Below are positions 56,083 through 59,317 of a stretch of DNA of 64,000 bases, piece by piece. The notes beneath the pieces are model-generated. The model was not told where the DNA came from, did not search any database, and worked only from the letters and a program-made list of their open reading frames with translations. Location: the NCBI GenBank assembly GCA_029560875.1, contig JAKQKB010000033.1, positions 62,001-126,000 of the forward strand. Direction: 5' to 3'. This DNA is from Bacteroidota bacterium. Its GTDB lineage: Bacteria; Bacteroidota; Bacteroidia; Bacteroidales; Tenuifilaceae. The position numbers were made by a program, and so were the translations under genes. The first letter of the stretch is position 1. Every line of letters begins with the position of its first letter.

Positions 56083-56243
56083 AACAATCGATTATTTGGT
56101 GTAAAGGTATATAGATTATAGTGACTTATTAGTTATACAATAAAAATTAGGAGCAACAGGCTAAAATTGCTCCTAATTATTCGGTTTAACCTTATTATTT
56201 GGTAAATGCTAATCATTAAATGTAAACATTGCGCCTTGCAAAT

Positions 56244-56366
56244 TTAAGCATTTTCCTCGGGTTGCTTTTTTTCCCAGTGCTTAATGGTCCATACACTTAG
56301 CTTGTAGCTGATGTACATAAGCACAGGCCAACTCAGCAACCATAATATCTCCGATATATACTTCAT
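56244..56366 (-). CDS. Tiny membrane protein at the end of the cyd operon (CydX-like candidate)
   Basis: This 40-residue frame starts 12 bases after the cydB stop on the same strand. It reads as one membrane helix (about residues 5-27, ISEILWLLSWPVLMYISYKL) followed by a basic and then acidic tail (KHWEKKQPEENA). The size, place and one-helix layout are those of CydX/CbdX/CydS-type small subunits of cytochrome bd, though its sequence does not match E. coli CydX. The fit to the operon and clean start and stop make it a likely real gene. A role as third oxidase subunit is inference. Confidence 0.72.
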   Translation of the reverse strand: MKYISEILWLLSWPVLMYISYKLSVWTIKHWEKKQPEENA

Positions 56367-56378
56367 AACATAATTATT

Positions 56379-57530
56379 TTAGTAAACGTGCGATTCTGAC
56401 TTCATCTCTTCCTCATCTATCTGCTTAACATTGATGCTCTTCCAAGCATACCAGATGTAAGCCACAACAAACGGAATTAGCAACGACACAAAACTCATCA
56501 CTGTAAGGGTAAACTTGCTCGATGAACTATTAAAAATGGTTAGCGAGTGCTGCAAATTGAATGTTGAAGGGTAATACGCAGTGTTGTTCCAACCGGCTAT
56601 TAGGAGCAGTGCCAGTACTGCAAGAACCGTTCCTGCACCAGTAAACCATATCCCTTTGGTATAGTTGGATATTAAAGACTTAGCAATACCCCAAAGCACA
56701 AGCAACACGCCTACTAAGAACACTATCAGAACGACAGGCATCTGAATAAAGTTATGCAGGTACTTGTACTTGGCCATAAACACTGTTCCATCGGCTGGAT
56801 TTACTGCAAAACCATCGCGCAACATCAACCAAATTGTAAAAACTAGGAATAGCACAACAAATGGTAAAGCGTTGTATAGCAGATGTTTCTTTGCACGTTC
56901 GAAAATCGCATTATGGTTAACGTGATTCATAAAGTAAAGGATTGCCAATGTCCGCGCTAAAAAGAATACCGTTAAGCCAAGTGCAAGGTTATGAAGGTTA
57001 AGGGCAGCCTCCAAACCATGCCAAGGTGTTTCCCACGATGAGATAACGGGGTTACTGGTATTGGTCAAATTCATCTTATCCACAGAAAACATTGACCCTG
57101 TAAAAAATGTTGCCACGGCTGTTCCAAGCAGAATTGTACCAAGCAAACCGTTGATGTAAAGGAAAACCTCGTAGGTTCGCTGACCCAAAAAGTTATTGGG
57201 TTTACTTCGGAACTCGTACGAAATTGCCTGAACAATAAAACAGAATAGTATGGCCATCCAAACCCAATATGCTCCGCCAAAACTAGTTGAATAGAACAAC
57301 GGGAACGATGCAAAGAACGCTCCACCAAAAGTTACAAGCGTTGTGAAGGTAAACTCCCACTTACGTCCAAGTGCATTGATAAGCATTGTACGCTCCAATT
57401 CGGTTTTTCCGAGGGTGTAAATTAACGTTTGTCCGCCCTGAACAAAAAGCAGAAAAACCAACAATGCACCAAGCAGCGATATTATAAACCACCAGTAATG
57501 CTGCAAAAAGATATATGTAGTATCAACCAT
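56379..57530 (-). CDS. cydB: Cytochrome bd ubiquinol oxidase subunit II
   Basis: The 383 residues form the eight to nine membrane segments of CydB, beginning with the long helix block WWFIISLLGALLVFLLFVQGGQTLI. TMLINALGRKWEFTFTTLVTFGGAFFASFPL and a C-terminal SSKFTLTVMSFVSLLIPFVVAYIWYAWK match the family. CydB pairs with CydA and helps bind heme d, giving a high-affinity oxidase that reduces oxygen to water with quinol. It starts 2 bases after cydA and ends 12 bases before the tiny membrane gene. Confidence 0.96.
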   Translation of the reverse strand: MVDTTYIFLQHYWWFIISLLGALLVFLLFVQGGQTLIYTLGKTELERTMLINALGRKWEFTFTTLVTFGGAFFASFPLFYSTSFGGAYWVWMAILFCFIVQAISYEFRSKPNNFLGQRTYEVFLYINGLLGTILLGTAVATFFTGSMFSVDKMNLTNTSNPVISSWETPWHGLEAALNLHNLALGLTVFFLARTLAILYFMNHVNHNAIFERAKKHLLYNALPFVVLFLVFTIWLMLRDGFAVNPADGTVFMAKYKYLHNFIQMPVVLIVFLVGVLLVLWGIAKSLISNYTKGIWFTGAGTVLAVLALLLIAGWNNTAYYPSTFNLQHSLTIFNSSSSKFTLTVMSFVSLLIPFVVAYIWYAWKSINVKQIDEEEMKSESHVY

Positions 57531-57532
57531 AG

Positions 57533-59095
57533 CTATTTACCTCCCTCTTTAGGTCCAATTTTAATTTGCTTGAACATTATGCGCAACTCCGCAATTAGCA
57601 GAGCGGTGAAGATTGTGAAGAAAAGGAAGAAAGTAATTTGTACTGCGCTAGAATCAATTCTGGAAACCGCCGCTACTGTTGGCAAAATATCCTGTATTAC
57701 CCAAGGTTGACGACCAACCTCTGCAACAATCCAACCAGTTTGACTGGCTATGTATGCAAGCGGAATCATCAGTATTGATAAACGCAAAATCCACTTATTG
57801 ATTTTAAACTGACGGAAGTAAACCAAGTAAAGTATTAGCATAAAGAAACCGATAAACAGGAATCCTAAAGCTACCATAATATGGAAACTATAGAAGGTTA
57901 GCGGAACGTTTGGGATTATGCTCTTGGGATTATTCAGATATCCATACCCAAAGTACTCAAAATTATCGTTAAGTATTGCTCTATAATATGCTACTGCTGC
58001 AGTATCGTTGGCATCTTTTGCAGCAGTGTAATCGGCAAGAGCCTTAATAGCGATTTTACCCCGCTCAATCTTCTGCTCGGCAGAAAGGGCAACCTTTTCA
58101 ACACCATTTTTATCGACATAGGTGTAACCGCCCTCAACAATATCCTTTACTCCAGGTACAAAAGCATCGCCACTGCGATAGCCAAGGAACGATAACATTT
58201 TGGGAATCTGAATACGGAAAATGTATGGGTCCTTATCATCGTCGTGCTGTTTTCCGGGTGTTAAAGCGCCAACTACTACTAGCGGAGCACCCTCCTGCCC
58301 TTCGTACAACCCTTCCATGGCTGCCAGTTTCATGGGTTGTTTTTGGGCAACCTGATACGCTGAACCATCGCCAGTTAAAGCAAGAAATATTGATGTTACC
58401 AATCCAAAAACTGCCGCTACAATTATGCTTCGCTTAGCAAGCAGAATATTTCTGCCCTTAAGCAAATACCATGCGCTAACACCAATCACAAATATTGCAG
58501 CGAGCACATACCCTGAAGTTATTGTATGCAAAAATTTGTTTATAGCAACTGGTGAGAAAAGCACCTCCCAAAAATTGTGCATCTCGTTACGCGCCGTGTC
58601 AGGGTTGAAGTACATACCGGCAGGATACTGCATCCAACCATTGGCAACGAGAATCCATAATGCAGAAAGATTTGCTCCAACCGCAACCAGCCAGGTTGAA
58701 ACTAAATGGAACTTCTTGCTAACCTTATTCCAGCCAAAGAACATCACTGCAATAAAGGTCGACTCCATAAAGAACGCCATAATACCCTCAATGGCCAATG
58801 GAGCTCCAAAAATATCGCCCACAAACCACGAGTAGTTGCTCCAGTTTGTACCAAACTCAAATTCCAGAATGATACCAGTTGCAACACCAATGGCAAAGTT
58901 AATTCCGAAGAGGGTCATCCAAAATTTTGTGATTCGTTTCCACTCCTCGTCGCCCGTTTTAACGTAAAGCGTTTCCATAAACGCAATAATAAAAGCTAGT
59001 CCTAGGGTTAACGGAACAAAAACCCAATGATACATTGCCGTGAGAGCAAATTGCGCCCGCGACCAGTTGACCAGCGAAAGGTCGAAGTGTTCCAT
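57533..59095 (-). CDS. cydA: Cytochrome bd ubiquinol oxidase subunit I
   Basis: The 520 residues hold the CydA helices. His23 in MYHWVFVPLTLGLAF fits the heme b595 ligand and the His in KFLHTITSGYV another heme ligand; GWMQYPAG is the family block. The quinol loop (about residues 245-385) is long, with many charged residues. Together with CydB it forms the bd oxidase, prized for oxygen affinity and often used by Bacteroidota in near-anoxic places. No other terminal oxidase is visible here. It lies 3 bases after a DUF4492 gene that is a usual cyd partner in the phylum. Confidence 0.97.
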   Translation of the reverse strand: MEHFDLSLVNWSRAQFALTAMYHWVFVPLTLGLAFIIAFMETLYVKTGDEEWKRITKFWMTLFGINFAIGVATGIILEFEFGTNWSNYSWFVGDIFGAPLAIEGIMAFFMESTFIAVMFFGWNKVSKKFHLVSTWLVAVGANLSALWILVANGWMQYPAGMYFNPDTARNEMHNFWEVLFSPVAINKFLHTITSGYVLAAIFVIGVSAWYLLKGRNILLAKRSIIVAAVFGLVTSIFLALTGDGSAYQVAQKQPMKLAAMEGLYEGQEGAPLVVVGALTPGKQHDDDKDPYIFRIQIPKMLSFLGYRSGDAFVPGVKDIVEGGYTYVDKNGVEKVALSAEQKIERGKIAIKALADYTAAKDANDTAAVAYYRAILNDNFEYFGYGYLNNPKSIIPNVPLTFYSFHIMVALGFLFIGFFMLILYLVYFRQFKINKWILRLSILMIPLAYIASQTGWIVAEVGRQPWVIQDILPTVAAVSRIDSSAVQITFFLFFTIFTALLIAELRIMFKQIKIGPKEGGK

Positions 59096-59098
59096 AGT

Positions 59099-59317
59099 TT
59101 ATTTTTTAGGGTTATTGGTTAACTGTTCAATAACGTAGTTGCTACGTTCTTCGTCGGTTTTAAAATTTCGTTTTAGGATATTTGGGAAGAAAAAAATCTT
59201 AAGAACTGCAAACATCACAAAGAGTTTAATTAATATAATAATCCACAGCGTTTTGCCAATGGTCATACTTTTAAAACCCTCGTAGTAGAAGCGGAAGATG
59301 CGTTTAATCATATCCAT
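59099..59317 (-). CDS. DUF4492 small membrane protein of the cyd operon
   Basis: This 72-residue protein has a polar N-terminal part (MIKRIFRFYYEGFKSMTIGK), one hydrophobic stretch (LWIIILIKLFVMFAVLKIFFF) and a charged tail (EERSNYVIEQLTNNPKK), matching DUF4492. The family is found directly ahead of cydA in Bacteroidota and Campylobacterota-like genomes, so a role in assembly or stability of the bd oxidase is likely but not shown. It is the first gene of the operon, with a very good promoter right upstream. Confidence 0.9.
   Translation of the reverse strand: MDMIKRIFRFYYEGFKSMTIGKTLWIIILIKLFVMFAVLKIFFFPNILKRNFKTDEERSNYVIEQLTNNPKK

Follow-up and report, generated by a model that had tools for sequence, protein, structure and literature searches.

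A CydY/CioY-type small protein in Bacteroidales as a probable third subunit of long-Q-loop cytochrome bd

A 40-residue protein encoded immediately downstream of cydB in a genome of the Tenuifilaceae (Bacteroidota; Bacteroidales) belongs by its sequence to the CydY/CioY family, and is most probably a third, single-helix subunit of a long-Q-loop cytochrome bd that acts as a clamp in the groove of CydA occupied by CydX. The window, i.e. the whole stretch of DNA analysed, comprises 64,000 nucleotides of contig JAKQKB010000033.1 (assembly GCA_029560875.1), and all coordinates below refer to it. The operon lies on the minus strand in the order DUF4492-cydA-cydB-ORF: it begins with the gene of a DUF4492 small membrane protein (59099..59317, minus; Pfam PF14899, 9.6e-32), continues with cydA for subunit I of the long Q-loop type (57533..59095, minus; PF01654, 7e-171; QxxK-to-GRQPW distance 208) and cydB for subunit II (56379..57530, minus; PF02322, 3.4e-65), and ends with the small ORF (56244..56366, minus), which we annotate as a CydY/CioY-family subunit on the strength of homologues, profile homology, coding signature and predicted helix. 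This ORF starts with an ATG at 56366, has 40 codons and a stop, and is separated by 12 nt from the cydB stop at 56379. A search of the window genome returned a single cydA match. On the 3' side of the small ORF is an intrinsic-terminator-like hairpin (56145..56178, minus) with a 13-bp stem and a T-rich tail, whose folding energy of -17.3 kcal/mol (z -6.2) was equalled by none of 200 shuffles; because this element comes next, the small ORF is probably the last gene of the operon. Beyond the hairpin is a 367-aa ORF that, from its residues, we take to be related to DAHP synthase/chorismate mutase. AlphaFold2 run on the single sequence predicts one helix spanning residues 2-39 (mean pLDDT 86.5), and the C-terminal tail is charged. 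An earlier sequence-only reading had described an ORF that begins 12 bases past cydB, completes the cytochrome bd operon and encodes one helix with a charged tail; the coordinates, the strong hairpin after the ORF and the predicted helix bear this out.

Neither Pfam nor NCBIfam contains a model that matches the window ORF, and a sequence search of solved structures found none. When the region was randomized to first order 5000 times, an ORF comparable in length and hydropathy arose in 149 copies (about 3%); these two properties by themselves are weak evidence that the ORF is non-random, and they leave room for an open frame arisen by chance, or for a regulatory leader that is translated but devoid of protein function. 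The protein-level evidence speaks strongly against both. Searches of 40 related genomes gave matches at E<=0.01 in 21 genomes from 11 of 25 genera, and at 22 of the 25 matching loci cydB is directly upstream, as judged from the C-termini of CydB; conservation of the protein in relatives that share this cydB context, which the sequence-only reading had singled out as the deciding point, was thus looked for and found. Across 14 members (91 pairs) the differences per 35 codons amount to 11.3 at first, 8.1 at second and 19.1 at third codon positions. Nine pairs were taken for dN/dS, of which seven were saturated and the two usable ones gave values of about 0.06 (0.054/0.837) and 0.16 (0.042/0.265). 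The small ORF is hence a real gene whose protein, on this codon pattern, is conserved under purifying selection. A chance ORF is ruled out by the conservation of the protein, the third-position bias and the fixed place after cydB, and with conservation extending across two phyla and a near-invariant W-P dipeptide the wider alternative that includes a functionless leader has become exceedingly improbable.

Small proteins encoded next to cydB have been described in other phyla. CydX is given by Allen 2014 (PMC4325964) as confined to Alpha-, Beta- and Gammaproteobacteria and two Leptospirillum, and the same source places CydY after cydB in long-Q-loop operons of Epsilon- and Deltaproteobacteria. 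CydY/CioY is characterized by a single hydrophobic helix with a Trp at its start, a Pro and a Tyr (PMC4325964, PMC11955535). The 34-aa CioY of Campylobacter jejuni, with conserved Trp, Pro and Tyr, has been validated (Froschauer 2025, PMC11955535): it shows reciprocal co-immunoprecipitation with CioA and occupies the CydX position in an AlphaFold-multimer model. The binding data for this family come from the C. jejuni protein only. DUF4492 scored above the cut-off in 40 of 101 Campylobacterota genomes, and 38 of these loci were fetched together with two desulfobacterial ones. In all but one of the 38 Campylobacterota operons (37) the ORF that follows cydB was detected by an HMM built solely from 57 Bacteroidales proteins, which had no match in either desulfobacterial locus; among 6370 six-frame segments the weakest accepted match had an E-value of 0.0067 and the next best segment one of 0.012. 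In hhalign the Bacteroidales and Campylobacterota alignments were matched with a probability of 98.7% (E 2.8e-16; L247, L248 and L235 were left out of the CydY profile). As the Bacteroidales profile finds the Campylobacterota ORFs, the Bacteroidales protein and CydY/CioY are, at the level of sequence profiles, one family and not a separate invention.

The two branches share the location after cydB, the upstream DUF4492 gene, the long-Q-loop CydA partner, a length of mostly 30-50 aa with a single helix and a core resembling WPxxIYxSYK. The window protein displays the sequence and operon hallmarks of the family: its gene directly follows cydB in an operon without a PF08173 match, its one hydrophobic helix has the conserved Trp at the start together with the Pro and Tyr, its partner is a long-Q-loop CydA, and the homology is evident at the profile level. 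W13 and P14 are each conserved in at least 90% of the 79 pooled members. Within the 57 Bacteroidales proteins W13 is present in 51, Glu or Asp at position 32 in 40 and an aromatic residue at P+7 in 54; W9, a second Trp four residues before that of the WP pair, is seen in 40 of them but is missing in many Campylobacterota members. The 79 members obtained only weak matches in Pfam and NCBIfam, the best at E 0.0035, which were spread over unrelated families. Some Campylobacterota forms of CydY are larger, as in the 73-aa version with a signal-like N-terminus; in six loci (L259-L263 and L265) the protein is about 70 aa long, and its WP helix is preceded by a signal-like helix at the N-terminus and by additional residues. 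In Desulfosediminicola flagellatus (L227) a DUF4492-type operon has a different short hydrophobic ORF after cydB that the profile misses. The name CydY has been used for two proteins, namely the sORF downstream of cydB (PMC4325964) and E. coli YnhF, otherwise CydH (PMC6853902).

A more distant relationship to CydX is likely, though not proven, from profile comparisons. Against a CydX profile made from 12 of 13 CydX loci (L272 was left out), the hhalign probability was 46% for the Bacteroidales alignment and 71% for that of Campylobacterota, with scores of 21.1 and 25.1. Both scores exceed those of 150 column-shuffled CydX profiles and of 70 CydB transmembrane windows, the margin for Bacteroidales being thin (21.1 versus 20.8 for the best shuffle and 19.6 for the best decoy). 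The alignment pairs W9, W13 and E32 with W2, W6 and E25 of CydX, where W6 is reported as the only fully conserved residue (PMC6005532) and Glu25 as marking the cytoplasmic end (PMC6853902). Thus the Bacteroidales protein resembles CydX in gene position, single helix, W-x3-W, Trp-to-Glu spacing and long-Q-loop partner, and probably also in the CydA groove it uses. It differs in that its second Trp is followed by a Pro and in that it lacks the MWYFxWxLG start (Y3, W6, G9), of which the W-x3-W is kept while the Tyr and Gly are not; the Pfam CydX model PF08173 matches neither the window ORF nor any of the 79 members. CydZ (DUF2474) and CydS are likewise single-helix small subunits of bd oxidases, and are described with short-Q-loop enzymes (PMC4325964; PMC13189123). 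Neither the window ORF nor the other family members match the DUF2474 model (PF10617), and the partner of the window ORF is not of the short type, in which the Q-loop motif distance is 131-141 rather than 208; the long Q-loop is found in all measurable CydAs of DUF4492-type operons, whether or not the small ORF is present, some rows lacking one of the motifs. No DUF2474 sequences for a profile comparison were found in 18 genomes. The DUF4492 protein, named CydW in Porphyromonas gingivalis (PMC4668044), is another small membrane protein encoded in this operon, but it is encoded upstream of cydA, has 72 aa and its own Pfam model, and is present also where the small ORF is missing. Its gene lies before cydA in Bacteroidales, in Campylobacterota and in some desulfobacterial genomes, and the protein may correspond to an upstream small protein that PMC4325964 mentions without a name.

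The distribution of the gene was surveyed in 148 genomes of the window's order, Bacteroidales, 90 of which contain DUF4492 and 106 CydB. The small-protein profile gave 58 matches at E<=3.3e-5 and a further 15 that were weaker; 56 of the former and one of the latter directly follow cydB in the same orientation, making 57 loci. The two remaining strong matches are located at a contig end (G372) and, in G383, as an orphan copy (L141, contig C112) amid unrelated genes and away from that genome's cydAB. An HMM search at full sensitivity downstream of cydB returned 57 loci at E<4e-5 and nothing else better than E 0.45. DUF4492 is upstream of cydA at 54 of the 57 ORF loci, the other three being near contig ends. 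Conversely, 36 DUF4492 loci have no visible ORF; in three of them the cause is a split contig or an ORF located elsewhere, and since the remaining 33 operons retain cydAB, the small gene is dispensable in some lineages. Fetched Bacteroidales cydB loci without DUF4492 have no small ORF (0 of 16); in L081, L083 and L086 a long-Q-loop cydAB was seen with neither DUF4492 nor small ORF detected nearby. Of six listed Bacteroidales records three were inspected, and these (Parabacteroides distasonis, Bacteroides ovatus and Prevotella nigrescens, one each) also lack it; the gene seems to have been lost from common Bacteroidales of the human gut and mouth. In a 296-genome sample of the phylum, a loose first pass turned up no convincing member outside the window genome: of the five weak matches outside that genome one (L027) does not adjoin cydB and the other four have E-values of 0.0025-0.0098. 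The proposal of the sequence-only reading, a Bacteroidota counterpart of CydX, therefore needs narrowing: a CydX-type subunit is supported, yet the closest known family is CydY/CioY and not CydX itself, and its range falls short of the phylum, given its absence from a clade that includes Bacteroides, Parabacteroides and Prevotella and the outcome of the phylum sample.

The losses appear to have left a footprint on CydA. Carriers are found on the Bacteroidota as well as on the Campylobacterota side of a CydA tree of 138 rows, which also contains one clade with full support whose 23 rows are all without the gene. The CydAs of P. distasonis, B. ovatus and P. nigrescens form a group with 9 gene-less rows that contains no carrier, the support of this smallest group being low (39) and that of the next larger one 94. 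We ranked transmembrane columns of CydA that agree between the carriers of the two phyla and are changed in the gene-less clade, using helix limits called by us from hydropathy and omitting four rows with very long branches and no DUF4492 (L072, L073, L078, L085). Helices 1, 5 and 6, with 94 of the 267 transmembrane columns, hold 12 of the top 15 changed columns (p=0.00035). For seven control clades of carriers the p-values at top-15 range from 0.11 to 0.84; one of the controls reaches p 0.025 at top-10, though not at top-15 or top-20. These are the helices that CydX touches in E. coli (PMC6853902, PMC13189123). At window position 225 none of the 55 carriers or the 36 CydY carriers has Lys or Arg, as against 21 of 23 rows of the clade and 5 of 10 other gene-less rows; position 196 is Trp in all 23 rows of the clade; and F230, invariant in 91 of 91 carriers, is Val in 15 of the 23. 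E. coli CydA (window numbering minus 4) has Ala, Tyr and Phe at window 225, 196 and 230 and Phe at 35, and its Ser233, reported at the CydA-CydX interface (PMC13189123), aligns with window F237. For these residue counts G423 (cydB split over contigs with the ORF on the other piece), G372 and G383 were dropped from the gene-less set; they still bear the gene-less label in the tree and in the lone-row test.

Gene-less rows outside the clade also deviate more at eight such columns than at matched columns: as large a deviation came up in 0 of 20000 draws from all transmembrane columns and in 1 of 20000 from columns outside helices 1, 5 and 6, some matched pools holding one column only. At positions 35 and 230 almost all of these rows show no change, and a tree-aware test of independent pairs gave about 4:0 (p 0.125), the pairs being too few. 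The groove signal rests mainly on one clade, and as support for the same groove as that of CydX we regard it as good but not decisive.

Taken with the precedents of CioY and CydX, this footprint suggests that the Bacteroidales protein is a member of the CydAB complex and sits in that groove. By analogy with relatives, the small gene would be co-transcribed with DUF4492-cydA-cydB, and the protein would insert with its N-terminus outside and its charged C-terminal tail in the cytoplasm, as in CydX (PMC6853902); we favor the N-out orientation because the six extended Campylobacterota forms have a signal-like N-terminus before the WP helix. The helix would then pack against CydA helices 1, 5 and 6, in the place of E. 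coli CydX, and, as CydX does, clamp the helices that surround the haems, stabilizing oxidase assembly and the haem region. A single helix could also bind CydAB elsewhere, for instance as a channel plug like YnhF/CydH, the second small subunit of the E. coli enzyme, which blocks an oxygen channel (PMC6853902); the concentration of the gene-less clade's changes in helices 1, 5 and 6, the modelling of the Campylobacter relative at the CydX site (PMC11955535) and the profile similarity to CydX make such a placement improbable. We consider it just as doubtful that the protein is an assembly or insertion factor rather than a stoichiometric subunit: operon position and co-variation with CydA fit a chaperone as well as a subunit, but the footprint in the groove suggests a lasting contact and CioY co-immunoprecipitates with CioA (PMC11955535). 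A clamp in the CydX groove is hence our preferred reading.

It is tempting to go further and regard CydX, CydY/CioY and the Bacteroidales protein as a single ancient family that pre-dates the split between the Bacteroidota and Campylobacterota enzymes, a possibility we advance tentatively and hold at slightly less than even. Gut-type Bacteroidales would then have lost the protein and refilled the exposed groove of CydA (225 from hydrophobic to Lys/Arg, 196 from Tyr to Trp), giving an enzyme of two large subunits that has ceased to need the clamp and perhaps also to dimerize through it. A study of P. gingivalis looked for cydX, cydY and cydZ and, by its account, found none (PMC4668044); this is consistent with the gene-less clade, and P. 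gingivalis, which the CydA tree did not include, may belong with the lineages that lost the small gene.

While the CydY/CioY family is already known, its host phylum here and the docking footprint on CydA are new in the literature searched: within open-licence PMC articles we found no report of a small CydY-type protein in Bacteroidota. According to a 2026 structural paper (PMC13189123), only some of the long-Q-loop bd oxidases contain CydX, and for many of the remaining enzymes the present family supplies a candidate partner that is absent from family libraries. It also yields residue-level predictions for the docking groove. Because cytochrome bd helps anaerobic Bacteroidales to cope with oxygen, it matters that constructs without the small gene may give an unstable enzyme. 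Finally, three loci from the window's own family (L022, L023 and L024) contain a second, divergent cydB accompanied by its own copy of the small ORF.
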